A stretch of 33,533 nt of DNA, taken from positions 1-33,533 of IMG/VR virus record IMGVR_UViG_3300031963_009720. One strand, 5' to 3'. The notes beneath the pieces were generated by a model. That model searched no databases. It had not been told where the DNA came from and saw nothing but the letters and a program-made list of their open reading frames with translations. The translations under genes were made by a program, and so were the position numbers. Source of the stretch: a virus. Shown here piece by piece: positions 611 through 26,371 of this stretch (its first letter is position 1; every line of letters begins with the position of its first letter).

Positions 611-2143
611 TTATTTTATATCGTACAACAAAGCGTCTTTAGGAAACACGAAGTTTCCACCGATGATATTTGGTTTTTTATTGAATATGAGAACATTCTT
701 TCCTTTTTGGAAAATCATCCAATCTGTTGAATATTGTTTGACATTACCTGTACCTGTAAGAATTATCTTATCACCTTTTTCTATTCTATCTTTGAACCCC
801 TTGATTTGTGCGGTGTATTCTTTTCCGTCTACGGTGATTTTTGCGTCGATACCCTTTGTCATATCTTCTTCGTCTCCCAACCCACCAGTTTTAACTGCGG
901 ATCCCGCTCCCAAAAATCTATTGATGATTGCAACTGTAATTTCTTCCCTTTTTTCTCCTGCTGAGTCAGTATCAATCAATGTTCTCATTAAGTTTTGGAA
1001 TGTAGAACTTTCCTTGTCAAATATTCTGAATTTAAAATGGTCTATTGCCTTGTTGAATCTTGTTATTTCTGCAAGTTGTTCGCCTGGCGTCTTACCAACA
1101 AAATCTATCAACGGCTTTTTCGGATCAATAGATTTGATCACCTTATTTATATCGTTAACCAATATACAAAAAGCGTTGTAGTTGGTGTTTAGTTTATTTA
1201 CAACAGATCTACCTGGTGATTCCAAATTATAAACACCGGCCATGTTTCCTTGATTGTCCCTTTCGGCCCAATTTTCTCTGAATACCTCTCTTAATACGTT
1301 GTTGATATTAGCACTGTATTCGTATTTTATCTTTTTGTTTACATTAAACATTACTCTCACAGCTTCAACAAACTCACTAGAACACTTCTCTGATTTTCCT
1401 TCAGATAAAATCTGTTTGAATTTTATAGACTCAGCTAATTTTGTTTCCGTCTTCATCTCATACATTTTTGAAACAAAGTCCCAATTTACCACTTTCCAAA
1501 AATTTGCAATGTACTCGTCTCTTTTGTTTCTGTATTTCAAATAATAAGCGTGTTCCCACAGATCAAGACCCAATAAAGGAAAACCCCCACCTTCAATTAC
1601 ATTCATCAGCGGGTTGTCCTGATTAGGAGTTGACATTATCTTCAACTTGTTTTGACTCGTTAATACCAACCAAACCCAACCTGATCCGAATCTTTCTTTG
1701 GCTATTGTTTCAAACTCTTTTTTGAAGTTGTTGAAATTTTTATATTGTTTTTTGATTTTCTCTTCGAGTTCCCCTTTTAGTTTCATTGGTTTTGGGGATA
1801 ACATATTCCAAAACAATGCGTGATTGAATGCACCACCTGCGTTGTTTCTTATTGTTTTGTCATACTTTGATATCGATTTTATTATCTTCTCCAAATCGAG
1901 ATCGCCGTATTTTTTCTTAGAAAGTGCGTCGTTTAGTTTATCAACATAGCCTTTGTAATGTTTGTTGTAGTGGAAGTTCATCGTTTCTGCGTCGATGAAT
2001 CCTTTGAGGGCTGAGTAAGAATAGGGTAATTTTTCTATTCCTATTTTTTTCATTTCTGTGATTAACAACTTGGTTTCTTCTTGAATGTGTGTTTCTGTAA
2101 TTTGTTTTTCAAGTTGTTCAATCTTCTGTTCTAGTTTATTCAT
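611..2143 (-). CDS. Mn/Fe superoxide dismutase fused to a C-terminal PD-(D/E)XK nuclease-like domain
   Basis: The 510-residue product has a short helical leader (1-35) and then a full Fe/Mn superoxide dismutase domain at about 38-230. All four metal ligands are present: His58 (NFHYNKH), His108 (FNHALFW), Asp194 and His198 (LDLWEHAYY). Tyr66 and the flanking GSGWVWLV and FWKVVNWDF blocks also match. Residues 103-104 are Gly-Gly and Gln175 lies in NQDNPL, the arrangement of Mn-type enzymes rather than the Fe-type Gln in the first domain. Bacterial SODs are about 200 residues, so about 275 extra residues follow. Their last part (about 395-505) has Glu400/401, then GIDAKI (Asp433) and AQIKG (Gln446, Lys448), the spacing of a PD-(D/E)XK active site with a Q-x-K variant. 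The SOD call is firm; the nuclease fold is inference. The preceding TATTTATA motif suggests late expression, so it may be packaged or act late against superoxide. Confidence 0.9.
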   Translation of the reverse strand: MNKLEQKIEQLEKQITETHIQEETKLLITEMKKIGIEKLPYSYSALKGFIDAETMNFHYNKHYKGYVDKLNDALSKKKYGDLDLEKIIKSISKYDKTIRNNAGGAFNHALFWNMLSPKPMKLKGELEEKIKKQYKNFNNFKKEFETIAKERFGSGWVWLVLTSQNKLKIMSTPNQDNPLMNVIEGGGFPLLGLDLWEHAYYLKYRNKRDEYIANFWKVVNWDFVSKMYEMKTETKLAESIKFKQILSEGKSEKCSSEFVEAVRVMFNVNKKIKYEYSANINNVLREVFRENWAERDNQGNMAGVYNLESPGRSVVNKLNTNYNAFCILVNDINKVIKSIDPKKPLIDFVGKTPGEQLAEITRFNKAIDHFKFRIFDKESSTFQNLMRTLIDTDSAGEKREEITVAIINRFLGAGSAVKTGGLGDEEDMTKGIDAKITVDGKEYTAQIKGFKDRIEKGDKIILTGTGNVKQYSTDWMIFQKGKNVLIFNKKPNIIGGNFVFPKDALLYDIK

Positions 2144-2149
2144 ATAAAT

Positions 2150-2170
2150 GGATTATTCTATAAATAATCC
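2150..2170 (-). promoter_or_regulatory. Hairpin carrying the TATTTATA motif before the SOD-fusion gene
   Basis: GGATTATT (2150-2157) is exactly complementary to AATAATCC (2163-2170), with a 5-base loop. On the minus strand TATTTATA occupies 2159-2166, overlapping the loop and one arm, and ends 15 bases before the ATG at 2143. The stem is AT-rich and has no U-tract, so a terminator is unlikely. It may be a promoter with dyad symmetry, or an RNA hairpin near the 5' end. Confidence 0.45.
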
Positions 2171-2179
2171 GTAAGTTCG

Positions 2180-3934
2180 TTATTGTCTACGTTGGTTAAT
2201 TTGTTTCATAATTTCTTCTACTATATCTACATCATTCTTTACATCACCCATCACCGTAGCAATAACTTGTTTTTTCTTATTGAGTATGTCGTAAATGATA
2301 CCTTCTATGGTATTTTCAAATATTGGATAGTAAACTAGTACATTGTTTTTTTGTCCGTATCTATATGCTCTGTCTTCCGCCTGAGAGTGGTCGGACGGTA
2401 AAAATGATAAATCGTTCATGATAACAGCTTCAGCGGCAGTCAGGGTAATTCCCACCCCAGCGGCTTTTATATTACCAACGAACACTTTTACTTTATCATC
2501 ATTTTGGAATTTATCTACACTATTTTGTCTGTCGGGTTTTGACATTGATCCATCTAATCTAACAGCCGCTTTCCCGAAGTGTTGTACAATCTGTTCTAAT
2601 GAGTTTGTGAAGTTACAAAATATAATAACCTTTTTACCTTGTTCTATGATGTTTTCCGCTAATTCAATAGTATTCAAGACTTTCTCATTTGCAATCACTT
2701 GTCTTACCTCAGTTAGTTTGGTGAACTGTACTGTTAGTGATTTACTTTCATCAGGATTTTTTTCGTACCAATTGTAATAGTCACCCATAACTTCCTCATA
2801 TTTTTTGGATTTCAGTCTAAGGTAAACTGGGGTAATAATTTTGTCAGGTAGATCCAACACATTTTCTTTCAACCTTCTTAGGACCATGTTGGATGTCCTG
2901 TCTCTGAGTTCCTCAAGATTGGACGCACCCATAACGTTCCAAACTTTTCTAGCACCAACTTTGAACTGATACCCCTCACAATATCGGATAACATACGCCA
3001 TCCAATTTTTGGCAACAGGAGAATCCACGAGGTTCAAGAGATTATAATAATCTATGGGTCTTGAAGTCATGGGAGTACCAGTCAATAACCAAAGTCTATC
3101 AACTCTTTTTACAAAGTCGTTGATGAGTTTGGTCCTTTGGGCTTGAGGATTTTTAATATAGTGTGCTTCGTCAATAACCACCAAATCAAAACCGGCTCTA
3201 AGAATCTGCGAATCATCTTTCTTTTTAGGGTCATGGAAATTTTTTATAATGTCATAGTTTATGATAACAAAGTCGTGTTCCGTACTGAAGTTCTTACCTT
3301 CGGAAATGTATACCGATCTTTGTGTGTAATTTTCTATTTCTCTTTGCCAGTTAATCTTCAAAGAGGCTGGACAAATAATCAGAATTTTCTTTGCACCTGA
3401 TTCGAGAGCCGCTATAATGGTAGACGTAGTCTTGCCAAGACCCATATCATCCGCCAAAACATAACGTTTATTTTCAACCAACTTTTGGATAGCTTCTTTC
3501 TGATGGTTGAGTGGTGGTCTGTTAGAATATTTTTCATAGTTGATATTAACGTCTTTTACGGTGTGGTCTTTGATCACAGCCGCTTTTGGTAACCAAAATT
3601 CATGGAGAGATTCCGATTCAAAAACTTTACCCCAAATATGGTACGCTTTATCTTTTTCGGCCAATAGTTTTTCAACCCAAACTTTTTCAGGTATTTGAGT
3701 ATAAAGTTTATCGTTAGCTAGTTTCTGTGCGAAATAGGTGTCTAACATTGCCCACTTCTTTGCAACTTTAGGTTGTTTATCGTGGTTATTGATAATGTAT
3801 TCTGATTGACTTCTTGTTGGATAGAACTTTTTGTTGAGTTGGAATTTACGTTTGAGTTCCTGAATATAATTGTTGGAACCTTCGTAGGTTTCCAAAATTG
3901 AAAGTGCTTTAGATTCTATTGATATGTCACTCAT
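2180..3934 (-). CDS. SNF2-family ATP-dependent DNA translocase/helicase
   Basis: The 584-residue protein has two RecA-like lobes of the SNF2 (superfamily 2) type. In order: an N-terminal accessory region (1-135), the Q-motif-like stretch LNHQKEAIQ at 142-150, Walker A ADDMGLGKTT at 161-170, ICPASLKINW at 187-196, DEAH at 255-258, LTGTPM at 284-289, lobe-2 motif IV (VIIFCNFTNS) near 436-445, motif V (GNIKAAGVGITLTAAEAVI) near 487-505, and motif VI DRAYRYGQKN at 521-530. The last is the SNF2 RAxRxGQ arginine-finger motif and distinguishes it from T4 UvsW. It resembles the SMARCAL1/HepA type, which remodels forks or displaces proteins from DNA. Its start overlaps the SET gene stop by 4 bases (ATGA-type overlap), so the two are translationally coupled. 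It could serve replication fork restart or host-protein removal; which is not visible from sequence. Confidence 0.93.
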   Translation of the reverse strand: MSDISIESKALSILETYEGSNNYIQELKRKFQLNKKFYPTRSQSEYIINNHDKQPKVAKKWAMLDTYFAQKLANDKLYTQIPEKVWVEKLLAEKDKAYHIWGKVFESESLHEFWLPKAAVIKDHTVKDVNINYEKYSNRPPLNHQKEAIQKLVENKRYVLADDMGLGKTTSTIIAALESGAKKILIICPASLKINWQREIENYTQRSVYISEGKNFSTEHDFVIINYDIIKNFHDPKKKDDSQILRAGFDLVVIDEAHYIKNPQAQRTKLINDFVKRVDRLWLLTGTPMTSRPIDYYNLLNLVDSPVAKNWMAYVIRYCEGYQFKVGARKVWNVMGASNLEELRDRTSNMVLRRLKENVLDLPDKIITPVYLRLKSKKYEEVMGDYYNWYEKNPDESKSLTVQFTKLTEVRQVIANEKVLNTIELAENIIEQGKKVIIFCNFTNSLEQIVQHFGKAAVRLDGSMSKPDRQNSVDKFQNDDKVKVFVGNIKAAGVGITLTAAEAVIMNDLSFLPSDHSQAEDRAYRYGQKNNVLVYYPIFENTIEGIIYDILNKKKQVIATVMGDVKNDVDIVEEIMKQINQRRQ

Positions 3935-4329
3935 CGGTTCTCTTCCTTAACTCTTTTTATCATGTCCCAATATTCTTCGGACCCGTAGTAAACCAAAATC
4001 TCTTCCCCTTTTTCGATCTCTCTCAATGCGTAGAACTCAAAGGTGTTATTTTCTTTGTTAGATCTCCAAGCGGCACTTGCTTTTTCGCTATGATTATAAA
4101 ACATACCATAACCACCAGAAACTACTTGTTTCTCAGGGTTTCCACCTTGAGGCCAGTTAAATCTATAATCTATTAGAATACGTGATGGATCAGAGTCTTT
4201 CAAGTTGATGTCAACAATGGGACAGATTTCGATCACTTCCCATATTTTGATTTTATTGCTGGCGAACACACCTATCCCGTGTATTGGACTTTTATCCAAA
4301 TATATTTTGGTGGGTGGGTTTATTCTCAT
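3931..4329 (-). CDS. SET-domain protein (predicted lysine methyltransferase)
   Basis: Starting at the ATG at 4329 this is 132 residues. SET signatures are visible: SPIHGIGVFAS near the N terminus (the SAM-binding G-x-G), a central GGYGMFYNHSEKASAAW with the NHS core motif, and the C-terminal REIEKGEEILVYYGSEEYW (the GEE-I-x-x-x-Y motif with the catalytic tyrosine region). There is no pre-SET or Cys-rich post-SET segment, as in small bacterial and viral SET proteins. The frame stays open to an ATG at 4377, but a Bacteroidota-type promoter lies between the two ATGs, so 4329 is preferred. It is first in a two-gene operon with the SNF2 protein, overlapping by 4 bases. The substrate is unknown; candidates are host nucleoid or translation proteins, or phage proteins. 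Confidence 0.85.
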   Translation of the reverse strand: MRINPPTKIYLDKSPIHGIGVFASNKIKIWEVIEICPIVDINLKDSDPSRILIDYRFNWPQGGNPEKQVVSGGYGMFYNHSEKASAAWRSNKENNTFEFYALREIEKGEEILVYYGSEEYWDMIKRVKEENR

Positions 4330-4343
4330 AACAATTTTTAAGA

Positions 4344-4375
4344 CAAATATAATTCTTTCCGATGTATTTATCAAC
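4344..4375 (-). promoter_or_regulatory. Bacteroidota-type promoter for the SET-SNF2 operon
   Basis: On the minus strand GTTG (4372-4375) is followed by a 20-base spacer and TATATTTG (4344-4351), an exact match to the TAnnTTTG -7 element of Bacteroidota. The expected transcript start falls a few bases before the ATG at 4329, giving a very short leader. Confidence 0.6.
4365..4372 (+). promoter_or_regulatory. TATTTATC motif before neck gene, overlapping the divergent promoter
   Basis: TATTTATC ends 5 bases before the ATG at 4378, the same spacing as the motif before the leftward gene starting at 586. It overlaps the -33 region of the divergent SET-SNF2 promoter by one base, so the two promoters may compete. 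Confidence 0.4.
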
Positions 4376-4377
4376 AT

Positions 4378-4890
4378 ATGGATAGACAGGTCCCAATAAC
4401 AAGGTTAGGTAAGTTTTTCGGTGGGGAAGATTTTGCCCTTGATATTGGCATGGGTGAAGAATGGCTTGAGGGTGATTTGAATTTCACATTAGTTTTATAC
4501 AAGGTAGATAAGAAAAAGACTAAGACTGATGATGTTTATGGAGAGGCTCTCGAGGACGGAATTCAATTTTTACCACCTGTAGAGTTTAAGGGTTATGTGA
4601 AAATACTACCTCCTACCAATCAAATGCTTGGTGGATCAAGAATTAACCAATCAGAGCCAGGAAACCTTCAGGTTTCTGTTTATCAACAAACGTTGGACGA
4701 CCTTGAAATTTCAATCGACTTTGGAGATTACATAGGTTATTATGAAACTGAAAGCCGTGTTAGATATTATAGTGTGGTTGATGATGGGAGGGTTAATTCA
4801 GATAATAAACACACTTATGGTGGTTATAAACCGTTCTACAGGACGATACTTGCCACTTACGTAAATGATAATGAATTTAGAGGAATATGA
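4378..4890 (+). CDS. Putative head-closure/neck structural protein
   Basis: The 170-residue product has an N-terminal segment (DRQVPITRLGKFFGGEDFAL), an acidic beta-rich middle with DVYGEALEDGIQFLPPVEF at about 54-70, and a Tyr-rich C terminus. A DVYGE...PPVE-type strand followed by further beta strands is seen in head-closure and neck proteins of tailed phages, and the position, first of three genes before the tail sheath, matches T4 gp14. No firm family match can be claimed by eye. The stop overlaps the next start by 4 bases. The ATG is the only sensible start and sits just after the TATTTATC motif. An alternative is a tail-completion subunit. Confidence 0.55.
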   Translation: MDRQVPITRLGKFFGGEDFALDIGMGEEWLEGDLNFTLVLYKVDKKKTKTDDVYGEALEDGIQFLPPVEFKGYVKILPPTNQMLGGSRINQSEPGNLQVSVYQQTLDDLEISIDFGDYIGYYETESRVRYYSVVDDGRVNSDNKHTYGGYKPFYRTILATYVNDNEFRGI

Positions 4891-5309
4891 TTTATTTAAT
4901 ATCTGAATCACAAGAATCTTTGTTACGTGATAACCTTTTGGGTCAGAAGGTAATGGTGTATTATAATCTACACAAACATACTTTCTCAATTCAGAAAAGT
5001 GGTCTCGTAGTTCTACACGCAGATTTTGTGGTTCTATCAGATGTTGAGTTTCGTGTTAGAAAGGGTGGGAAAGAAAAAGTTAGAAAAGAGAAATCCAAAA
5101 ACGTTCACGCGTTTGTAATCGGTACGTTGGAGGATTATTGTGAATATCCTTGTGAAGAAATTCCGAATTTAGATGGGGGTGATGTTATTTCGTATAACCC
5201 TTATGTAAATGATTCGTTCGTTATAAAATCAACTCAAGAACCAATTTACCAAGCATCACAAGTTGCTTTGGTGAATGGATCAAATAAAATTTATTTATTA
5301 GAACCATAA
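4887..5309 (+). CDS. Hypothetical protein in the neck/tail-completion operon
   Basis: The 140-residue product is not assigned. It starts within the stop of the preceding gene (ATGA overlap) and its own stop shares a base with the next ATG (TAATG), so all three genes are likely translated in series from one late transcript. The sequence is basic in the middle, with a cluster (RVRKGGKEKVRKEKSKN at about 57-73), two cysteines close together (EDYCEYPCEE), and otherwise short beta strands with no signal peptide or membrane segment. The segment MVYYNLHKHTFSIQKSG is a pattern I associate with small conserved T4-like phage proteins of unknown function. Its location suggests a structural or assembly role. 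Confidence 0.7.
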   Translation: MIYLISESQESLLRDNLLGQKVMVYYNLHKHTFSIQKSGLVVLHADFVVLSDVEFRVRKGGKEKVRKEKSKNVHAFVIGTLEDYCEYPCEEIPNLDGGDVISYNPYVNDSFVIKSTQEPIYQASQVALVNGSNKIYLLEP

Positions 5310-14095: not shown

Positions 14096-17000
14096 ATGCC
14101 TAGCCCATTAGATTACGGTAGTACAGAAGCCTTCAGAAAACGACTTCTAACAAGAAATCTGAGATCATACAAGTTGGCCCCATACGTCGACCCAAATCAG
14201 GTTGCTTACCCAACAGTACTGACTGACCAAGCGGTTGTAGACAGTCAACCAGACCCATCGGGTTATGGATTGGTTGTCTTCAATGACAGAATGGCTAGAT
14301 TCAATGTTTATTCTCCAGATACACCATTCGAATATTCCACAGGAACTGTAATTAAGGAATCAGAGTTTGAACCATATCCAAACTTCAATTCATCATTTTA
14401 TGAACCTGTTGACATATTATTCGATAGAGATCCATTAGGTTCCAATGGTCTTTTGAGTTCAGATTCATTCATTGCCAAGATTGGTGCAACACAACTTAAA
14501 AAACTTTTTGAAGAAAGAATTGCGGTAGAAATATACCAACGAACTGTCGGTAGAGCAAACATTGCGGGGGCGGCAAGTGGTAGTAATCTTTTCGGAGTTC
14601 TAACAAACAGAATTCCTCTTATCGAGCCGAATTATCAAATTACCCAACCGGCAAATCCTTTATTGTCGGCAGTAGATTTAGCCGTGAGATTAGCAGGAAG
14701 TTATATTCCTTTTTCACCAATTCCAGGTTCTTATTGGGACACAGAAATAAGACTTGGACAACCAACAACAATACAACAAATTGAGAAAGCTTTTTCTTTT
14801 GTCACTCAATCAGGTATAGGAAAATTCTTTGCCAGATTACTTGGATCTGCGGATTCAGGTTCTCAAAAGTTCTTAAGTAACACAGGTCCTGGTCAAAAAA
14901 GTGTTCTGTTCAAGAACATTGACATGAACAGGTTCAAACCTGATTATGACAGAAACTTCTTCGATAGATTGGGAGGTGCAATTGTTGGAGGTCAAGCAAA
15001 TAGTTCAAACTATTACGTTGGATCTAGAACCTCGGATCCATCTATGGTGTTTTCACCAATTGGTGATTTACCAACAGACCACTTTGGAAGACCTATACAA
15101 TCCCCTGTTTATGGCCCATCTGAGTTAGCTCAACTATATGAAGGAGTTGAACAGTCACCAGGTTTAGGTCCTGCGGGAGTGCCATATGTAGATGGTGGTG
15201 GTATAGAAGGTGGAATGACTTGGGTGTCACCAAAATACAAAAGGAATGCTGGAAAATACGTAGGTCCTGGTGGTAAGGAAATGGGAGAAGATCCTGATTT
15301 TGACCCCTCTACTTATGACGACTCAAACTCGACAAGATTCAGATTCAGAACAGGATCTATCTTGGACGAAACACAGAGAATTGTAGAAAGTCAGCCAGCG
15401 GGTGCAAAAAGATTTGAACATGTAGGAAATGCCATAGATCAAGTAAGTAAAGTATTCAGTGATGGATACAAAGAAATGACGAAAGGTTCGAGAGTAATTT
15501 CGTATGTAGGTGAAATTGGAAATGAGGTAGGTGCAGAATATTGTAGGGTCTTTACCAAAGATACTCCATTCCTACAGTATAACGATTTACAGAAGACTGA
15601 TGGTATGACAACTGAGGGACGTAGATTCTCTTATTCGGTGTTCGATAAAACATACAACCTGAACATTGCTCCAAACAGAAGAAACGGGGGACAAGACTCA
15701 AGTAATCTTATTGGTGGTGCTAATGGGGCTTATGCAAAGAAATATATGTTCTCGATTGAGAACTTGGCGTGGAGAACATCGAAAATGTTCGAAGATCTTG
15801 CGGATTGTGAGAAAGGGCCTAATGGAGGTAGAGTAATGTGGTTCCCTCCTTATGGTTTAACTGTTAATGAAAATGTAAGTACAGGTTGGAACACATCTGA
15901 GTTCTTAGGAAGACCTGAACCAATTTACACCTATAAATCGACACAAAGAACAGGTACACTCTCGTGGAAGATTATTGTTGACCACCCATCAGTTCTTAAC
16001 GTTATCGTTAACAAAGTATTAAAAGATCAGACGAAGAAGAACATCATTGATGGGTTAATCAATTCATTCATGGCGGGATGTACAAAGTACGACCTTTATG
16101 AACTCGCTAAAAAATATGCAACAATCAATAGATCGGATTTGTATGAGATACAAAGGATGTTGACAAATCCTACTGTTACCAAAGAAGAAATATTAGAGGC
16201 AAATGCTCAATTGAACGTAGGTATACCGGCACCCACAAATAAAACCAATCCTTCACCTGAACAAAAAGACACCACACCAAGTTTAGATCAATACAAAAAC
16301 TCCGCAGTGTATTTTGAAAATGATATCCCTAAAAAAGGGGCTGTTGGAAGTTATGGTGGTTATTATACAACTTATGTTTCTCCAACAAACCAAGCAACAT
16401 ACACAAAAAACGCTACCGGTCCGAACGGAAAAAAAGATACAAGTGCTACCCAACAAGTACAAAACATGTTTAGTAGCGGGGTTATTGAAAGCTTCAAAAA
16501 ATTGAATAATACCTCAACATTCTACAATGAACTCAAGAAGATATTAGATGATGGTTATAGTGTTGTAATAGATATTGAAGGAGGAGCGTCTGCACCTGCA
16601 ACAGCCAATTATAACAACGAATTAGGACAAAGACGAGGTCAATCCTTGGTTGAGTATTACAAAGAGACGGATCTTAAGAAATACATTACAGATAAAAAAA
16701 CATTAACATTTAACATCAGATCAGTAGGTGAGCAAGGAACAACAGATGCTGGAGGTGCACCACAAGCGGGTGTGACTAACGTTCAAACTTTGGGTACAAA
16801 TCAAATCAATTGTACAAGTGGTAAGGGTGACGTTGGTGATAAAGATATCTATACAAGGAACGCAATGGCTTGTAGAAGGGCCAAGATAACAAACATAAGA
16901 GTAGTTCCTAAACCTTCAGATCCACAACAAAACATCACAACAACCCAAACTATATCTGCGGCGGTGCCAGCGGGACAAGCTCCACAGGCAATCCAAGGAT

Positions 17001-18985
17001 CGTCACAAACAAATGTACAGGGACCTGTAGAGACAGTTACCGAGGTTCAACGAGATAATATAACGAAGAGAGTGTTAAGGAAATTCTTAACAGAGTGTGA
17101 TTACTTTGAGGTTATCAAAGAAGAGACACCCATGGTTTATGATAACCTGAAAGACAAATTACAATTCTTTGATCCTGCGTTCCACTCGATGACACCTGAA
17201 GGACTTAACTCAAGATTGACGTTTTTACAACAATGTATGAGACCAGGGGAATCAATTCCTACGATCAAAGAAGTTAATGGTCAAACAACGATACAGTACG
17301 ACCAAGCGATGAATACAGCTTTTGGGGCACCCCCAATCCTCATATTGAGAGTTGGTGATTTTTACAATATTAAAATTGCACCAACAAGTCTAGGAATCAC
17401 GTACGAGCCTCTATTAGATATAAATCCTGAAGGTATTGGAGTTCAACCTATGATTGCTAACATTACCTTAGGATTCAACTTCTTAGGTGGTGCTGGATTA
17501 AAAGAACCTGTTGACAAACTACAAAACGCCCTTTCATTCAATTACTACGCAAATACAGAGATTTACGACGAAAGAGCAGATGCTACCGATATAGAAAGTG
17601 CTCAAGCCCTTGATGCTGAGTTTATTAAATCAGTACAGGCTAATGAGACGTTGAATAACCTTAATGCGGTTAACAGTAATGATGCTTATAACGGAAAAGG
17701 TAATAGTGAAACTATTGGTGTAATAACAAGGAGAGCAATAAACGATTCACAATTAGATACAGGAGATATCAATTACAAAGATATTATGAATGTGCTTTTG
17801 GATTCATCTCAAACATTCTTTACAAACACAATCAATCAGTCTAAGACTATTGTAAGTCAATATGGTGGAGTTATGTTACAACAATGGGGATATCAGAGGT
17901 ATTATATGGAGGGACTTATCAATTCGGATGGAGTTACTGCTAATAACTTAATTGGTAAATCTCAGAATATTGAGAAGAGGATGAATAAGTTTTTCACTGA
18001 TTATGAAACAAGTATTAATAATGGGTCCAATGGTTTTATAAATTACTTAGAAAGTACGAACTTTAACTTCTCTAATAAATTGATAAGGGTTGTTAAGAAA
18101 AATTTTGCTTCTTATATCAACGAAAGAAGATCAAATTATTACAACTCTATCACTAAGATAATACAAGAGACAACACAACAACAATTGAATCTCACTGCTA
18201 TTCTGAACAGACTGAATGTTTTATATCAGGACAGTGGTACGTTCCTATATGATGGTTATGCTCTCCAAAACGGAACAATAAAAATGTATCAATGTGCCTC
18301 TACTACAGAAGTTGACCCATCAAGTCAGAACCCACCAAACACAAATACCTACATAGAAATGCAAAACGACATAACAAAAGTCGCAGTTGCTCTAAAAAGT
18401 TTCAATGAAAAAATTGCAACGGATTATTCTTACAACATAACAGCAGGATCAATCAAAGGTAGTGTAATTAAAAACGGATTAAATAATCAAGGAGGATTAG
18501 AAACCAATGTATTCGAAGCACTTACAAACCCACAAAATCCTGTAGGATCAGGATTCTTTTGGAATGAGAATGGTGTTACAAACAAAATAGGTTACATGAT
18601 TATGAATAATGTGATTCTTGATGATAAGGAATACCAAAACTTCAGATCAAAAATCTTGAACGACATTGTAAACAAAGCAGAGCTTAAAGGGGACGGTAAT
18701 CAAGAAATTGCTAGAGTTTTTGACGACTATTGGAAGGATAAAATAAAACCTTTATATCAAGCAGAAACAAAGGCAACACAGACGTTGATTGAAAAATTCG
18801 AAAAAGAAAAAGTAGCTGACTTTATGAAGTTTACGCCTTATACTAAGAATAAACCAAGGAAGTTCGTGTTCACACAATTGACATCTCCTACAGAAAACCA
18901 AAAAAATTCTATTAAGAACTTAGGGAAGACTGTCAATACAAATACAAGTAATAAAACTTGGAACGACAAAGTTAAATTTAACTAA
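14096..18985 (+). CDS. Giant baseplate hub-like structural protein with OmpA-like domain
   Basis: The 1629-residue protein has several visible regions. Residues about 1-380 are Pro/Gly/Ser-rich (PSPLDYGSTEAFRKRLLTRN). Residues about 480-660 form a conserved block (PFLQYNDLQKT; GGRVMWFPPYGLTVNENVST; GRPEPIYTYKSTQRTGTLSW; DHPSVLNVIVNKVL) typical of large hub proteins related to tube-initiator folds. Residues about 795-935 look like an OmpA C-terminal domain: VVIDIEGGASAPATANYNNE, LGQRRGQSLVEYY and later YTRNAMACRRAKI. Residues about 1060-1160 (ILRVGDFYNIKIAPTSLGIT; DINPEGIGVQPMIANITLGF) are a second hub-barrel block. The tail (1230-1629) is helical. The gene starts a baseplate operon and shares one base with the gp53-like start. 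It is a virion protein, most likely central baseplate; no T4 gene of this size is equivalent, so it may merge several hub or tube-initiator functions (gp48/gp54-like). Confidence 0.75.
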   Translation: MPSPLDYGSTEAFRKRLLTRNLRSYKLAPYVDPNQVAYPTVLTDQAVVDSQPDPSGYGLVVFNDRMARFNVYSPDTPFEYSTGTVIKESEFEPYPNFNSSFYEPVDILFDRDPLGSNGLLSSDSFIAKIGATQLKKLFEERIAVEIYQRTVGRANIAGAASGSNLFGVLTNRIPLIEPNYQITQPANPLLSAVDLAVRLAGSYIPFSPIPGSYWDTEIRLGQPTTIQQIEKAFSFVTQSGIGKFFARLLGSADSGSQKFLSNTGPGQKSVLFKNIDMNRFKPDYDRNFFDRLGGAIVGGQANSSNYYVGSRTSDPSMVFSPIGDLPTDHFGRPIQSPVYGPSELAQLYEGVEQSPGLGPAGVPYVDGGGIEGGMTWVSPKYKRNAGKYVGPGGKEMGEDPDFDPSTYDDSNSTRFRFRTGSILDETQRIVESQPAGAKRFEHVGNAIDQVSKVFSDGYKEMTKGSRVISYVGEIGNEVGAEYCRVFTKDTPFLQYNDLQKTDGMTTEGRRFSYSVFDKTYNLNIAPNRRNGGQDSSNLIGGANGAYAKKYMFSIENLAWRTSKMFEDLADCEKGPNGGRVMWFPPYGLTVNENVSTGWNTSEFLGRPEPIYTYKSTQRTGTLSWKIIVDHPSVLNVIVNKVLKDQTKKNIIDGLINSFMAGCTKYDLYELAKKYATINRSDLYEIQRMLTNPTVTKEEILEANAQLNVGIPAPTNKTNPSPEQKDTTPSLDQYKNSAVYFENDIPKKGAVGSYGGYYTTYVSPTNQATYTKNATGPNGKKDTSATQQVQNMFSSGVIESFKKLNNTSTFYNELKKILDDGYSVVIDIEGGASAPATANYNNELGQRRGQSLVEYYKETDLKKYITDKKTLTFNIRSVGEQGTTDAGGAPQAGVTNVQTLGTNQINCTSGKGDVGDKDIYTRNAMACRRAKITNIRVVPKPSDPQQNITTTQTISAAVPAGQAPQAIQGSSQTNVQGPVETVTEVQRDNITKRVLRKFLTECDYFEVIKEETPMVYDNLKDKLQFFDPAFHSMTPEGLNSRLTFLQQCMRPGESIPTIKEVNGQTTIQYDQAMNTAFGAPPILILRVGDFYNIKIAPTSLGITYEPLLDINPEGIGVQPMIANITLGFNFLGGAGLKEPVDKLQNALSFNYYANTEIYDERADATDIESAQALDAEFIKSVQANETLNNLNAVNSNDAYNGKGNSETIGVITRRAINDSQLDTGDINYKDIMNVLLDSSQTFFTNTINQSKTIVSQYGGVMLQQWGYQRYYMEGLINSDGVTANNLIGKSQNIEKRMNKFFTDYETSINNGSNGFINYLESTNFNFSNKLIRVVKKNFASYINERRSNYYNSITKIIQETTQQQLNLTAILNRLNVLYQDSGTFLYDGYALQNGTIKMYQCASTTEVDPSSQNPPNTNTYIEMQNDITKVAVALKSFNEKIATDYSYNITAGSIKGSVIKNGLNNQGGLETNVFEALTNPQNPVGSGFFWNENGVTNKIGYMIMNNVILDDKEYQNFRSKILNDIVNKAELKGDGNQEIARVFDDYWKDKIKPLYQAETKATQTLIEKFEKEKVADFMKFTPYTKNKPRKFVFTQLTSPTENQKNSIKNLGKTVNTNTSNKTWNDKVKFN

Positions 18986-19308
18986 TGGGAGGGCAGTATT
19001 ATAATAGGTATCAGGAGTTTCTCATCAATGGTGAGCAAACAGTTGTGCCTTTTGTTACAATACCAAATAAACCATCAGATAAGGTTCATATCTATAAGGT
19101 TAATAGAAGTAGACTTGATAAAGTATCTGAGGAATATTATGGGTCACCATATTTCGGATGGTTAATTCTACAAGCCAATCCACAGTTTGGTGGGTTAGAA
19201 CAGAACATTTTTGATGGTGCTTTCTTGGTTGTTCCATACCCATTGATTACTTCACTACAGGATTATAAAGCGGCTTTGGATAACCATTTCTTATATTATG
19301 GCAGGTAA
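18985..19308 (+). CDS. Baseplate wedge protein, gp53/LysM-like
   Basis: The 107-residue product has the LysM-like core of T4 gp53 baseplate proteins: KVHIYKVNRSRLDKVSEEYY followed by GSPYFGWLILQANPQF and ending IFDGAFLVVPYP. The pattern I-Y-x-V-x-x-x-R-L-D-x-[IV]-S-x-x-Y-Y-G-x-x-x-x-x-W-x-I-L-x-A-N is characteristic. T4 gp53 is 196 residues, so only the core is present. It fits between the two giant baseplate genes, with a TAATG junction upstream and an 11-base overlap downstream, so it is tightly coupled to both. Its role is joining wedges to the hub. Confidence 0.8.
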   Translation: MGGQYYNRYQEFLINGEQTVVPFVTIPNKPSDKVHIYKVNRSRLDKVSEEYYGSPYFGWLILQANPQFGGLEQNIFDGAFLVVPYPLITSLQDYKAALDNHFLYYGR

Positions 19309-22300
19309 CAGTATATTCACAGGACAAGACGGAAACATCTATGTTGATTTTGACGTTCAAAACTTTATTGTGGTTGATCCTAATAAGATCGTTGATAAGA
19401 AGGGAAAAATCCAAGAGAGATCGGTTGCCCAAGAAAATCTTGTTATGTATGCCAATTTGGAAACGAAACTTCTCCCGAGAACAAAACTTGCGGTAGGACA
19501 AACTATACAGGATCAGATTACCACTGTTTCAATAGCGGAAATAAATTTCATGAAGCCTGGTGGTCAGAAGTACCTCACAAACGATTATACAAATGAGATT
19601 ACGGGTCAGGGTATTTTGAACAAGGGTACAACCAATAAATCTTCAGCATCATTCACACCATCGACAGGACAAAAACCTTTTGCTAATGTACAAGCTGGTT
19701 TACCAACACAAAATCAAAACGATACTGGACTACTTGGTATAACATCTATAAATTGTAAGATAGATACATCATTCGTTCCACAAGTAACTATTGAGTTAGA
19801 GGATGTACAAGGAAGGGCTTTATTTGAAAAAGGTGATTTATCCCCATACGCAGCATTCTTTCAGTTACCGTATCCGCCATTTTACCTTACACTTAAAGGA
19901 TTCTATGGGCAGGCCATTAGATATCAACTAAATCTAATATCTTTCAATGCTAGGTTTAATACCTATTCAGGTAACTACCAAGTTACTTTACAGTTCTATG
20001 GGTACAAATTCAACATTTTGAATGAGATATCAATACAGTCGATACTGGCAGTACCTCACATGTATTCTACACAATATACAATAAGTAAACCATTATCTGA
20101 CAGTACAAAATCAGCATCACTGACACAGATTGAGGAAGGTGGTACCGCAAAAATACACGAAGTCTATAGGGATTATAAACAGAAGGGATTGATACCAATG
20201 GATTTCCCTGAGTTGGCTGTTGATGAGTTATTGAACAGATTAGAGATGTTTGAAACTAATTTAATGAATTCATGGACCAAGGAAGATGTGTCTTCTTTAA
20301 CAGAAAGTGTGAATTTCAAAAACAGTTTGAATGCCTTTCAAGGTGAAATTCTCACTAACAAAGATTCATGGTTCGAAGTCAATTGTGATAAAGAAAAGGC
20401 GTTGGTGGTTAAGGGAGGGGGAGAGGCTTTATATCCACTGAAAAAGACAGTCAAAGATGGTGCGAATAGTGCTGGTGAAAGTACAAAACAGAAAGCGGAT
20501 GCGAGTTTGAAGGCAAAGGTACAGAGTAATAATGACATACTTGCTAGTAATTCTGTTTTTGGATCGGAAGGAGCTAAGGATAAAAACCTCGAAGTTAAAA
20601 GTACTATCACATATGAAAACATGTTTGTTGAAATTGAACCAAATTCAATAGACTTTGTTGCAACTTTCAAAATAAGAAACAAAACAGATAGAACTCCAAC
20701 CCCATCTGAAGATGCAAACATAAGGTCTCAGATTGCCACTGAGCTGATTTCTAATATAGAATTGTCTGATCAATCACAAGAAAAAAATGACAAGATAAAA
20801 CTCTATGTTTTCGAAGGTAAAAATAGATTCACGGGGTTAATAAATAAAATGTTAGAAACCCTAAACTCTAAGGCTCAAGCAGAAGAAGAAAGAATTACTG
20901 CTGTTTTGGCAGCAAAACTAGAAGACAAGGCACAAGGTATAGGCTTCAGACCATCAATAAGAAATATTATAACAGTTCTGATGGCATCTACCGAAGCTTT
21001 TATCAGAATTATGGATGATGTCCACAAAAAAGCGTGGGACAAAAGAGATGATCCTGACAGAAAAAAAGCCGTGATGAAGTTCCCATCTTCAGACATGAAA
21101 GACAATGTTCCTGTCGATCCGATGGCACTGATGAATAATTCCATTTATGCTAACTCACAACAACCAATATATCCTTGGCCACAATACTTCGTTCAGGATG
21201 ATAAAAATCCTGACAGGTTTGTTATTCAATACCCAGGTGATCGAAGTGTAGTTGATTCTACAAAGGCTTTCGATTATTCAAAATGGCCTGAAGTACAATT
21301 CGTAGAGGAGTTTGTTAAGGCTTCAACAGAAAAAGGACCACAAGTTCAAGACAACACACAGAAAGATAATGAAGATCAGGAGATCAACAGACTAACTCTG
21401 AATGGTATTGAATTCCCACAAACTAATATTCCTTACTTTACAAAAGAGGAAGTTAAGTTCTTCTTCGAAATATGGGAAAGGACATACGTTAACTCACATT
21501 ATAATAGATTCCAAAGAGGAGGTAACGTAAAGGAGATTTATGAAACAATAGGAAGAAACGAAGCTGACAATATTATCACCGCTTTGGGGGTATCGTCGCC
21601 ATTTTTGATTCAGAAACTCAAAAATTACGGATTCAATTTCCAAAACTTCTTAGGAGTTTTATCTCACATTTCTAATCAGGGTACCGGACCATCCATACAA
21701 AAATTGATTCGTGATATTTTTGCAACACCATATATCCAAAATGAAGTTGATAGACCATTCGAAATATATGATTCAAGTACTATAGATGGTGCAAGTTCAA
21801 CAGTCACAAGAGGATTGACACAAACAGATCTAACTAATTTTAACTCTTTAATTAAAACAAACGTCCAACCAGATTTTTGTGACACGTATCCATTTACAAG
21901 CGCGATTTGGAATCAAACAAATTTAGAAACAAGCGCGAAGGCGGCTCAAGGTCTATTCTATAATACTAAGACAACTCTTTTTGTTAATGGTGATAAAAAA
22001 GTTATTTCCAACTACATTGAAAGTACAACGAAAGAAACGATCAGACCTGTCACAAGTTTTGCCTATAAAAACTTCACTCAGCCAGTAGTTCCACAGAACA
22101 ACTTGAATATATTTTATCAATTCAGAGACAAACCTTCACAGTTTTTGTCAACAGAAGGGTATTGTGTTGGATTAAGTGGATCAGGATTTGCAACACAGAC
22201 GACATCAATATTGAATACACCATATTTTGTAAACGCATTACAGAATGGAGTTCAAGAATGGCAGTCAGGTAACAAATACCCATATGTACAAGGAGCATAC

Positions 22301-25300
22301 CTTTTAGTGAATTCTTTACCCTTATCCACATTAAGAGGTACATACAAAAATAAGGGAGAAGTTGAAAGTTTAGACTACATAGCTTCTTCGATAAAAAGAT
22401 TCGGAGGTATACACAAATTACCATATGCGTGGATCCTCAAATTGGGTTCTGTTTATCACAGATATAAAAAATTTGTTAATGACAATGTTGATATTTTAGA
22501 TACATGTTGGAAAGATTTTGATTATGTACAAAACTTTGACCCGATAACATTCAGAGAGGATAAAGTTTATAGCCTTTCTTTTGCTTCTGGTACTACCTCA
22601 CAAGTCTACTTACAAGGATACTATTATAATCCACCCCTTCCACCACCAGCAATATCTTTAAGTTTTACAAGCCAAACTATTCAATCGGGATTTTATCCGA
22701 AACTGATCAATGACATGAACGTTTTCTTGAACGGCAAACCATGTTTTTCAACTTACTCAGATGAGGAGATACAATTATATGTTGATTCAACAATGAGAGT
22801 TGGTAACATAGCGGAATCCAACGTGGATCAAGTTTTCGTTTCGGGTGGTACACCTTTGAACATATTCAGAATGAACCCTTGGACAACAACTATCAAGAAC
22901 ACCTCAACTGGTTCATATTACACGTCACCCTCATTCGGAACAATTTATAATCAAGTACCGTATTCAATATTTGACTCCGTGACAACTCAAGGATCTTATG
23001 TTGCAAACAGAAATATTTTGAGTAATCCTGCAATATACAACGGATCAGTAAGATGTTTTTGGGGGGCTTCTAATTACGGATATTTTGATGTAACTAGAAA
23101 TCCGAAACCTAACCCATCAGAATATATTACATTAGTAGAACCTGAAGGTGAGGTTTATCCTATGAGTTTAGGATTTGGATATTCTAGTATTGAAGACATT
23201 TTTGCGGTTTTCAATAAGGAACAACTGGACGTGATGGAGCAGAAGTTCTTGGACTTCAGTAGATCCGTATATGACATCAACCCTAAAGTTGGGCCTGGAC
23301 AACCACAGATAACAATCAATGTTGATACAAATGATCCGAATAGATATTTGAAAAACTTTCAGTTGATGGTGAGAGAATTTTTCGAAATCAATGCACCACA
23401 GGCTGGACAAAGTACACAGGATTACCTCAAGAGTGCCATCAGTCAACAATTTGGTAACATCATAACAATCCTGAATAATTTCATGGAATATGATGTTGTG
23501 GTTAAGATGGGTAATCCATCTAACTACAATAGGAAATTGTTCGATAGTTTTAACCCTGACTACGAAACAGGATATGAGTTTGTTGACAACACAACCTCAC
23601 AAACAAATACAACCGTCGGATTTAAATTGGTGGACCCGTTCAAGTTTGAAACATACATTCCTGGAACTCTACCAACCAGTGGAGGGACAACCACACTCGC
23701 CGCATCATACCAAACAAACACTGAAGCATGGAAAGAACTGTTGACACAGATGGGACCATCTACAATCCCAAGAATGATACCCACAAGTAACGGTTCTTAC
23801 ATAACGGATTTCTTTGTTGATAATAATATTAGATTCAATAAGAATAACGTACAAATTTGTGCTCCCCTAATTAGGATATATGCAACTCAAAAACTTAAGA
23901 ATCCATCACTCAATGGAGAAAGTTTCAAAAACTTAGTTCAAAACTATTCTGAACAAATGTTGGAGTATCATGAAAACGTATTCAATAATTTATTCCAAAA
24001 TCTTCAGAAAGGTTTACCAAGTGTTTCATATCCTGTTGAGGGTAAGATAACTAGTGCAATCACAGGGGATTTGATCAAGGCTCAATTATATGAGAACTTC
24101 AAAGCAATCAATGACAAATGGATTGCAGGAAACGCCTACAATGAAGAGACACTTCTTCAAGATTTCTTATTTGTTGACAGAGCATCTAGGAACGTTGGAG
24201 ACAGTATATTGGTAGATATTTTTTCAGTTAAGAATAGATTGAGAAACTTAAATGTGGATGCGAGTGTTTACACCATGATATCAGGAATATTGGTTGAAAA
24301 CAATTTCTCTGTAATGCCACTACCGGCATATGTAAACTTCTATAATATTCAGACACCTGATGGAAAAAATCCTGTCCCTAAGACTGAGAACTCCGCAGAT
24401 TTTGCGAACAATCTTTGGGGGACATTCTTAAGTGTTGATTATAGAAACTCTCAACCTAAGTTGGTATGTTTCTATTCTGAGAAACCTTCCAACTATCCCG
24501 ATTTAGGTAGAAACCAAGACTTCAGATACAAAAACGACGGATTCAATTGTAACAGTGTAACCAGTAACCCACTTATCACAAATGATGGAGATAAAACTAA
24601 CTACGCTTTATCAAACAGATGTGTTGGATTCAATGTTGATATGGGTATCAGAAATCAAAACGTTTTCACATCTTTTTCTGTATCACAAGATATTGGTAAG
24701 GCAACTTCTGAAAGTTTGATTGCCGTAAACAACTTGGCAAACCAAGCCTCAGGTAGGGACGTTGCATCTTCGAATGTGTCATTACTCAACATATACAATG
24801 AGAGAAGTTATGCTTGTAATGTTGTTAGTTTAGGTAACGCATTGATACAACCAACAATGTATTTCTGTTTGAATCACGTTCCCATGTTCAATGGGGCATA
24901 TTTGATTACATCAGTTGAACATACGATTACACCAGGTGTTTTCCAAACATCCTTCACTGGAGTTAGACAACGTGTATTTGCAAGTATCAGACCGAATAAC
25001 TATCTAATAAGTTTGAATAAGAACTTGTTACAAAAGTTGGTAACCACAGACTTGAAAACAGCCACAGTTAAACCTAACGTGGGTGATATCAATCAAACAA
25101 GTAAGAAAGCCAACGATGCTCAAAACAGTTGCCAAGAATCTGTAACATCAGGAGTTACAAGATACCAAAAGGGTTACACTGCAATTGCAGCAAATGAGAC
25201 TACGGTTACCTTACAATCTTTTGTTAGTGCCCTTAGTACAAATTTACAAAGTTCGTCTTCAGACCAAAAACTTAGATCACAACTTGCGATGGCGGTTTTC

Positions 25301-26371
25301 GTGTTCAGTTATGTTTCTTCAGCGGCATCAGAACAAATGAAATCATTTGGAAACAACTATACTAACGTAAACTTACAAATAGATTGGGGTCCTAAGTCTG
25401 ATGTATATTTTGAGAAACAATTCTGTTGTGTGAATATAGGAACAGATAAAGGTAATCAATCTAAACCTTTTGCAAGATTTGATAGTTTGGAAAAGTTCAT
25501 AAAATTTATGTGTGATAGTTTGGATCAATCTTGTGTAAACAATCAGTTTGTAACAGTGTCTGCGAATTCTTTCATACCTACGGTTGATTCAATGTATAAC
25601 TATTATAAAAGAGTTTGGCCAAGAATTAGAAATGAACAACAACAAAAAGATTTTGAGACCAACCAAGGTAAAGAAGTCAAAGCGAAGATATCTGAGGCGT
25701 TGGATAAAATCGGAGTATTATTCCCAACGGCAGGAATCCCATTTGTATCAACAACAAATCAGACAACACCAAATCCGGCAACACCAAATCCGACACCAAC
25801 CCCTTTAGGGCAACAAGTCAATCCAAATCTTACACCTAACGCCCCTGACAGAACAATATTCTCAAATGCTAGAATACCAGGTTCAGGTACAATATATGTT
25901 CTGAGACCATCGGTTCTTGCAGATGGTAAATTGAAAGTGAGAGGTGGAATTGGTCCGGATTTATTGAGTAAAGATTATGAGGTGGACATATATCTAATTG
26001 TATTGAACGGGATGGGTACCCAAATAAAGATAGGATCTAGTATATTAAAAAAAGGTGACAATAATATAAATTCTTTTGAGTTTATAACACCAAAATCATT
26101 CACAAGAGAATTAGATACTGCTGCAGGATCTACAACAAGTAATAACTCAAGGGAAGTTGGATTTACATTCAAGATAAAAGAATATCCTGAATACGAATTT
26201 GGGACGGTTAAGGTAGTGTTACCTTATGAGTGTCCAGGTGAAAGTTATAGAATATATGATTTGGTTGAAGAATCGGTGTACAAATCTATATTAGAGGACC
26301 CATGCGGAGAGTGTTATCCTAATGGAACGAATGGTCAAGAAATAATTCTCTACGGTAAAAAATGTACATAA
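19298..26371 (+). CDS. Giant baseplate structural protein (gp27-like hub region, Pro-rich linker, possible cell-wall domain)
   Basis: At 2357 residues this is the largest protein in the window. An N-terminal block (about 145-260) has INCKIDTSFVPQVTIELEDV and YPPFYLTLKGFYGQAIRYQL, like baseplate proteins of other environmental myoviruses. A helical stretch runs 340-620; the centre (700-1600) is large, Tyr/Asn-rich and without a recognised motif. Residues about 1790-1900 hold a hub-like block (NIYNERSYACNVVSLGNALI; QPTMYFCLNHVPMFNGAYLI; HTITPGVFQTSFTGVRQRV). Residues about 1945-2115 resemble a GH73/lysozyme-type domain weakly (FGNNYTNVNL; PFARFDSLEKFIKFM). A Pro/Thr linker follows at about 2150-2180, then a C-terminal beta domain. 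It is translated from an 11-base overlap with the gp53-like gene. It is surely a virion protein, probably combining hub and wedge roles; exact T4 equivalence is not resolved. Confidence 0.75.
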   Translation: MAGNSIFTGQDGNIYVDFDVQNFIVVDPNKIVDKKGKIQERSVAQENLVMYANLETKLLPRTKLAVGQTIQDQITTVSIAEINFMKPGGQKYLTNDYTNEITGQGILNKGTTNKSSASFTPSTGQKPFANVQAGLPTQNQNDTGLLGITSINCKIDTSFVPQVTIELEDVQGRALFEKGDLSPYAAFFQLPYPPFYLTLKGFYGQAIRYQLNLISFNARFNTYSGNYQVTLQFYGYKFNILNEISIQSILAVPHMYSTQYTISKPLSDSTKSASLTQIEEGGTAKIHEVYRDYKQKGLIPMDFPELAVDELLNRLEMFETNLMNSWTKEDVSSLTESVNFKNSLNAFQGEILTNKDSWFEVNCDKEKALVVKGGGEALYPLKKTVKDGANSAGESTKQKADASLKAKVQSNNDILASNSVFGSEGAKDKNLEVKSTITYENMFVEIEPNSIDFVATFKIRNKTDRTPTPSEDANIRSQIATELISNIELSDQSQEKNDKIKLYVFEGKNRFTGLINKMLETLNSKAQAEEERITAVLAAKLEDKAQGIGFRPSIRNIITVLMASTEAFIRIMDDVHKKAWDKRDDPDRKKAVMKFPSSDMKDNVPVDPMALMNNSIYANSQQPIYPWPQYFVQDDKNPDRFVIQYPGDRSVVDSTKAFDYSKWPEVQFVEEFVKASTEKGPQVQDNTQKDNEDQEINRLTLNGIEFPQTNIPYFTKEEVKFFFEIWERTYVNSHYNRFQRGGNVKEIYETIGRNEADNIITALGVSSPFLIQKLKNYGFNFQNFLGVLSHISNQGTGPSIQKLIRDIFATPYIQNEVDRPFEIYDSSTIDGASSTVTRGLTQTDLTNFNSLIKTNVQPDFCDTYPFTSAIWNQTNLETSAKAAQGLFYNTKTTLFVNGDKKVISNYIESTTKETIRPVTSFAYKNFTQPVVPQNNLNIFYQFRDKPSQFLSTEGYCVGLSGSGFATQTTSILNTPYFVNALQNGVQEWQSGNKYPYVQGAYLLVNSLPLSTLRGTYKNKGEVESLDYIASSIKRFGGIHKLPYAWILKLGSVYHRYKKFVNDNVDILDTCWKDFDYVQNFDPITFREDKVYSLSFASGTTSQVYLQGYYYNPPLPPPAISLSFTSQTIQSGFYPKLINDMNVFLNGKPCFSTYSDEEIQLYVDSTMRVGNIAESNVDQVFVSGGTPLNIFRMNPWTTTIKNTSTGSYYTSPSFGTIYNQVPYSIFDSVTTQGSYVANRNILSNPAIYNGSVRCFWGASNYGYFDVTRNPKPNPSEYITLVEPEGEVYPMSLGFGYSSIEDIFAVFNKEQLDVMEQKFLDFSRSVYDINPKVGPGQPQITINVDTNDPNRYLKNFQLMVREFFEINAPQAGQSTQDYLKSAISQQFGNIITILNNFMEYDVVVKMGNPSNYNRKLFDSFNPDYETGYEFVDNTTSQTNTTVGFKLVDPFKFETYIPGTLPTSGGTTTLAASYQTNTEAWKELLTQMGPSTIPRMIPTSNGSYITDFFVDNNIRFNKNNVQICAPLIRIYATQKLKNPSLNGESFKNLVQNYSEQMLEYHENVFNNLFQNLQKGLPSVSYPVEGKITSAITGDLIKAQLYENFKAINDKWIAGNAYNEETLLQDFLFVDRASRNVGDSILVDIFSVKNRLRNLNVDASVYTMISGILVENNFSVMPLPAYVNFYNIQTPDGKNPVPKTENSADFANNLWGTFLSVDYRNSQPKLVCFYSEKPSNYPDLGRNQDFRYKNDGFNCNSVTSNPLITNDGDKTNYALSNRCVGFNVDMGIRNQNVFTSFSVSQDIGKATSESLIAVNNLANQASGRDVASSNVSLLNIYNERSYACNVVSLGNALIQPTMYFCLNHVPMFNGAYLITSVEHTITPGVFQTSFTGVRQRVFASIRPNNYLISLNKNLLQKLVTTDLKTATVKPNVGDINQTSKKANDAQNSCQESVTSGVTRYQKGYTAIAANETTVTLQSFVSALSTNLQSSSSDQKLRSQLAMAVFVFSYVSSAASEQMKSFGNNYTNVNLQIDWGPKSDVYFEKQFCCVNIGTDKGNQSKPFARFDSLEKFIKFMCDSLDQSCVNNQFVTVSANSFIPTVDSMYNYYKRVWPRIRNEQQQKDFETNQGKEVKAKISEALDKIGVLFPTAGIPFVSTTNQTTPNPATPNPTPTPLGQQVNPNLTPNAPDRTIFSNARIPGSGTIYVLRPSVLADGKLKVRGGIGPDLLSKDYEVDIYLIVLNGMGTQIKIGSSILKKGDNNINSFEFITPKSFTRELDTAAGSTTSNNSREVGFTFKIKEYPEYEFGTVKVVLPYECPGESYRIYDLVEESVYKSILEDPCGECYPNGTNGQEIILYGKKCT
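25765..25794 (+). repeat. Two tandem 15-base units encoding a Pro/Thr linker
   Basis: AACACCAAATCCG occurs at 25765-25777 and again at 25780-25792, a 15-base period that encodes repeated TPNP(A/T). It lies between the possible lysozyme-like domain and the C-terminal beta domain of the giant baseplate protein, so it is likely a flexible spacer that can change length by slippage. Confidence 0.75.

Follow-up and report, generated by a model that had tools for sequence, protein, structure and literature searches.

The minus-strand open reading frame at positions 611-2143 of the window, that is, of the whole 33,533-nucleotide stretch of viral DNA analysed here, codes for a protein of 510 residues that is a genuine fusion, in one chain, of a superoxide dismutase (SOD) and a PD-(D/E)XK nuclease-fold module. 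The phages that carry it are large relatives of T4 known solely through environmental DNA. That the product is a late, capsid-targeted precursor, cut in the prohead so that both enzymes are delivered with the DNA, is an explanation we find evenly poised between acceptance and doubt; packaging, cleavage, the two catalytic activities and the biological targets of the protein are what we infer. The features discussed below are the following, a slash marking the candidate cut in residue strings.

2159-2166, minus strand: late-type promoter motif TATTTATA, inside the hairpin and 23 nt ahead of the fusion ATG, found upstream of the gene in 46 of 46 distinct close homologues
2150-2170, minus strand: inverted repeat GGATTATTTATAGAATAATCC just upstream of the ATG, a predicted RNA hairpin in read-through mRNA (covariation, folding)
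611-2143, minus strand: SOD-nuclease fusion gene, 510 aa (open reading frame and translation, full-length IMG/VR homologues, dN/dS)
2033-2143, minus strand: residues 1-37, predicted N-terminal helix ending I/L-x-E-M-K-K-I-G-I-E, a possible targeting leader (conserved end, partly retained in SOD-less orthologues)
1454-2032, minus strand: residues 38-230, Mn-type superoxide dismutase (Pfam, PDB match, invariant ligands)
1379-1453, minus strand: residues 231-255, linker with two conserved prohead-protease-like sites (alignment of 34)
1430-1432, minus strand: codon of E238 in the linker, LAE/S, candidate prohead-protease site
1400-1402, minus strand: codon of E248 in the linker, LSE/G, candidate prohead-protease site
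614-1399, minus strand: residues 249-510, helical region and putative PD-(D/E)XK nuclease-fold core (AlphaFold2 model, Foldseek, invariant residues)
944-946, 845-847, 806-808 and 800-802, minus strand: codons of the nuclease residues E400, D433, Q446 and K448

The fusion in its family

The search for the same fusion in environmental phages was productive: relatives are encoded in 157 IMG/VR stretches, the 80 of them that match over the full length or up to a contig end were kept, and clustering at 85% identity gave 33 sequences, which with the window make 34 non-redundant homologues. Contigs obtained independently, from many samples, carry the fusion in frame, with identities of 57-100%. Pairwise dN/dS, where dS could be estimated, is 0.02-0.09 for the SOD and 0.06-0.18 for the C-terminal module; purifying selection acts on both halves, and the SOD half is the better conserved.

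The SOD is not a constant part of the locus and is absent from one subclade. Sixteen fetched IMG/VR loci encode the C-terminal module without it, and the gene sits between a SNF2 helicase gene and a neck-like gene in 24 of 24 syntenic loci checked, SOD-less ones included, all of these loci having been located through the gene itself. In some SOD-less orthologues the leader is retained as far as ...NEMKKIEIEKL and is followed directly by KSIISE/GKSERCS, bridging the SOD; others begin MNNNENKVSLVLSE/TKAEKC. In a tree of the C-terminal module the SOD-less sequences L212 and L216 group with the SOD-bearing L222 at 100/100, and deeper branches have the SOD, which makes it likely that the SOD was lost at least once at this locus. 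Six SOD-less records, two of them 308 and 318 kb long, were searched for a SOD gene at another place, and none was found.

The superoxide dismutase half

The Pfam domains Sod_Fe_N (9e-23) and Sod_Fe_C (2e-40) together span residues 36-226, and both pass their curated cut-offs (137 and 81 bits against 20.9 and 27). Among solved Mn-SODs the closest PDB relative found by phmmer is 6gsc (E 3e-59, residues 38-230). The metal ligands H58, H108, D194 and H198 are identical in all 34 non-redundant homologues, as is the second-shell Gln175, and a reading of the sequence adds G103 and G104 (the Gly-Gly before the His ligand), F111 and D176 to Q175 as Mn-type second-shell residues, where these five positions presumably correspond to those of the E. 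coli SOD numbering. The sequence-only reading of residues 38-230 as a complete Mn-type SOD with four ligands and Gln175 is thereby borne out; the half is a member of the Fe/Mn SOD family, with predicted dismutase activity. It resembles that family (PF00081/PF02777) in its two full domains, all ligands, the Mn-type second-shell Gln and its closeness to solved MnSODs, but differs in that the phage protein carries a nuclease-fold module and an additional N-terminal helix. The SODs of Vibrio phage 2.275.O and of PA5oct, in contrast, are stand-alone products of separate genes and far more distant from the fusion. The SOD-like protein of PA5oct bears the label 'ESI-MS/MS' in its record; the paper searched does not mention it.

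The C-terminal module

An AlphaFold2 model of residues 249-510, built with 41 sequences, has a pLDDT of 91.4 and a pTM of 0.85. It places E400 within a long helix, D433 just ahead of a strand, and Q446 and K448 on the next strand, which, as modelled, is the canonical PD-(D/E)XK layout with Q-x-K, a known variant of the motif. All four residues are invariant in the 34 non-redundant homologues and E401 varies, so the conserved acid is E400; from the pattern Glu400/401-Asp433-Gln446-x-Lys448 proposed earlier, everything but E401 has therefore stood. In Foldseek comparisons the top PDB match is I-Ssp6803I (probability 1.00, E 5e-3), followed by Hjc and, lower, by BsaWI, PrfA and RecU; all of the top six matches belong to the PD-(D/E)XK superfamily (probability 0.54-1.00), even the best E-value of just 5e-3 being that of a remote match. 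The predicted core shares with I-Ssp6803I and archaeal Hjc an E in the first helix, a D before and Q-x-K on the following strands, and it differs from PD-(D/E)XK nucleases in an N-terminal helical part of its own, of ~130 residues.

Searches at the level of sequence gave less. Beyond residue 230 no curated family was reached above threshold in Pfam, PHROGs or PADLOC, the weak matches being DUF6602 (8.5e-4, best member) and PADLOC PD_DExK (2.5e-3), and a PDB sequence search with the module returned no real match, any likeness to solved members being undetectable in that way. Since sequence fails to connect many true members of the superfamily, the missing family match lowers the case for membership without excluding it. 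That case is carried jointly by the fold matches and the invariant residues, the single E-values being modest. Structure prediction thus upheld the nuclease fold that had been suspected in the C-terminal part, the best solved matches being PD-(D/E)XK nucleases; the fold assignment is supported by the model, and nuclease activity may be expected from it.

Among deposited phages the only relative of the module found is a distant stand-alone homologue (L104) in the 735-kb uncultured phage LR756501/LR756503, in which the E, D, Q and K are retained. A SET-domain gene adjoins this stand-alone module. Near the fusion gene, the window too encodes a SET-domain protein (3931-4377, minus strand, E 5e-14); SET-domain proteins are, to our knowledge, rare in phages. 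The model also matches, at a TM-score of 0.85, part of an 1113-aa uncultured marine phage protein (BFVD A0A8D9CCA0) of apparently different, larger architecture.

Expression signals upstream of the gene

Counting both strands, the window has 16 copies of the heptamer TATTTAT, 12 of which lie at most 80 nt upstream of a gene on the same strand; 11 genes are preceded in this way. The motif that had been described as one seen before virion genes does precede the fusion gene, but it is not restricted to virion genes, since TATTTATA also precedes the DnaB-like helicase and ribonucleotide reductase genes of the window. What sets the fusion gene apart among the 11 motif-bearing genes is its repeat, which is longer and more closely placed than that of any other. 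The arms of this repeat change together across homologues (GGATTAT/ATAATCC, GAGTTAT/ATAACTC, GGGTTAT/ATAACCC, CGGCTTATT/AATAAGCCG); 94% of the alignment cells are paired, and the covariation exceeds that of all 500 shuffles and of all slides. The longer RNA folds at -7.9 kcal/mol (z -3.1), and an RNA beginning inside the repeat gives no fold. In T4, I-TevI, soc, e and other genes have the late motif within a hairpin, the arrangement shared by the fusion gene, and there the hairpin keeps read-through RNA from being translated until the onset of late transcripts, whose start lies within it (PMC2988022). By analogy, the hairpin of the fusion gene would block its translation before the late phase, and the gene would stay silent until then.

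The linker and candidate processing sites

T4 gp21, the prohead protease, cleaves after L/I-x-E (PMC9026906). In the alignment of 34, E238 and E248 are present in every sequence with a hydrophobic residue (L/I/V/M) at -2, the residue at +1 is small in 33 and 32 of the 34, respectively, and no other conserved Glu column combines a hydrophobic -2 with a mostly small +1. Many of the 34 proteins have no [LI]xE[AGST] site besides those of the linker. The two linker sites fit a protease of gp21-type specificity. Against reading them as cleavage sites stands the shortness of the L/I-x-E motif. E30 was considered as an equally good site and rejected, its +1 residue being almost always Met instead of a small P1' residue.

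A gp21-type protease gene is not within the 33-kb window. A Peptidase_S77 gene is present in 9 of 18 related records, many of which are fragments, and the gp23 capsid protein in 13 of the 18; the gp23 of relatives carries LINE/A at residue ~60 in 11 of 11 cases. The internal proteins of T4 have N-terminal capsid-targeting propeptides of 10-19 residues, and the SOD-less orthologues have short leaders ending in an L/I-x-E-type site (e.g., MNNNENKVSLVLSE/TK) that, by analogy, resemble such targeting sequences. The likeness to T4 internal head proteins and Alt would thus comprise the L/I-x-E sites, the short leaders of SOD-less orthologues, the S77 protease and gp23 of relatives and the late signals. 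The difference is that T4 targeting sequences are N-terminal, whereas the best sites of the phage fusion are internal, between two enzyme domains.

The linker also seems to resemble a tag that other proteins of these phages carry at the N-terminus. The pattern [KR][LI]xE[ST]-x4-11-[VIL][LIM]xE occurs nine times in the 521 ORFs of two relatives, eight times at an N-terminus, and the sole internal occurrence is the SOD-nuclease linker; 29 of the 34 homologues have a tag-like linker. The spacer range of the pattern was relaxed after the linker had been seen, so as to admit it, and the count is accordingly suggestive only. An N-terminal L/I-x-E is associated with the late motif in one relative (G005, p 0.008) and not significantly in the other (G003, p 0.13).

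Separately, a tag of the form MK..IITES[QKR] or MKK.I[KR]LTES[DE]L..IVKRVL.E[QS] stands on 24 of the 353 ORFs of the 308-kb relative G003 (L285-L300), where ~1.5 would be expected, and the window gene at 4887-5309 begins MIYLISESQ. From its sequence, this recurrent N-terminal tag is a possible capsid-targeting or processing tag; tblastn with the tag peptide gave no match among deposited phages.

Prior records

The sequence-only reading had not known the fusion as described, and the records agree with it. No fusion was found in a collection of 50,697 deposited phage records, full-length searches of bacterial and archaeal genomes returned SOD matches only, and we found no published description in the literature searched. 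One UniProt entry, A0A6J5L953 (uncultured Caudovirales phage, 501 aa), is the same fusion: it is 50% identical over 480 columns, and its C-terminal part matches the nuclease model at a TM-score of 0.91 (Foldseek, viral library), but its annotation reads 'superoxide dismutase' only. SODs are listed among the ROS-defence genes of freshwater phages, with no fusion mentioned in the part of that source consulted (PMC6802176). Each half is of a known kind, and it is the combination, the linker and the SOD+/SOD- polymorphism that appear undescribed.

Elsewhere in the window, between tail/baseplate genes, two ORFs of 1629 and 2357 aa (14096-18985 and 19298-26371) have no PHROG match at E 1e-3.

Discussion

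Our consideration of how the two halves work together starts from the conserved linker sites, whose resemblance to head-protease sites suggests packing of the two enzymes into the particle, followed by their separation. The earlier suggestion that the protein may be late and particle-borne is backed indirectly by these sites, by the likeness of the linker to a tag and by the late motif with its hairpin. We propose that the gene makes a late bipartite precursor, a manganese SOD followed by a nuclease of PD-(D/E)XK fold, in which the linker perhaps derives from a tag at the N-terminus of the nuclease that served its targeting and processing, or has a likeness to such a tag. The precursor would most likely enter the prohead core as T4 internal proteins do, and a gp21-type protease might then cut after E248, as well as after E238 and possibly E30, freeing SOD and nuclease in the head. 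Both would be delivered together with the DNA: once a new cell is infected, the nuclease might act on DNA there, and the SOD might keep superoxide from harming DNA and protein, whether packaged or incoming. The fullest version of this proposal, in which a protease-released two-enzyme polyprotein is injected with the genome and a tag shared within the lineage loads many proteins into the head, we put forward tentatively, leaning slightly against it as a whole.

The main rival is an uncut bifunctional enzyme of the cytoplasm, made late and left unpackaged, in which the SOD dimer or tetramer holds the nuclease domains and detoxifies the superoxide of phage-driven metabolism. SODs of the Fe/Mn family are oligomers, PD-(D/E)XK nucleases often work as dimers, and stand-alone phage SODs exist. 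Phage SODs are, moreover, usually taken as protecting the infected host (PMC6802176). The nuclease at the same locus in SOD-less orthologues, however, needs no SOD scaffold, and an uncut enzyme leaves both the conserved L/I-x-E/small sites and the tag-like linker unexplained; we regard this rival as a serious though unlikely alternative to the packaged precursor.

It is less probable still, to the point of being a minor concern, that the C-terminal module, with a PD-(D/E)XK fold that is catalytically dead or serves only to bind DNA, tethers the SOD to packaged DNA. DNA-binding-only members of the fold exist, and the better conservation of the SOD half would suit such a role, but all 34 sequences keep E400, D433, Q446 and K448 amid variable neighbours, as expected of an active site, and the module also occurs without any SOD to tether. 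Capture of a SOD gene by a homing-type endonuclease would account for the top PDB match, itself the homing enzyme I-Ssp6803I, and for late-promoter and hairpin control like that of T4 homing endonucleases. The constancy of the locus in all 24 syntenic loci checked, with or without the SOD, points instead to vertical inheritance, and we consider a homing origin very improbable; no empty site was seen among these 24 loci, though empty sites could be missed in a set found through the gene itself. A sequencing or assembly artefact joining two genes, or a frameshift missed here, has practically no claim left and is ruled out by the in-frame homologue family, the sole split copy being a divergent homologue (L197, 5030-6591) with its SOD and nuclease parts in different frames, whose near-identical sister L217 is in frame.

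Returning to the packaged precursor, a SOD joined to a nuclease by a site like those of head processing would give the particle an antioxidant enzyme in its interior, where the DNA is delivered, in contrast to the normal view of phage SODs as helpers of the infected host. The natural pair of SOD+ and SOD- forms at one conserved locus makes the contribution of the SOD directly testable. Lastly, the recurring N-terminal tag might show which proteins are packaged by a large phage lineage that is uncultured.
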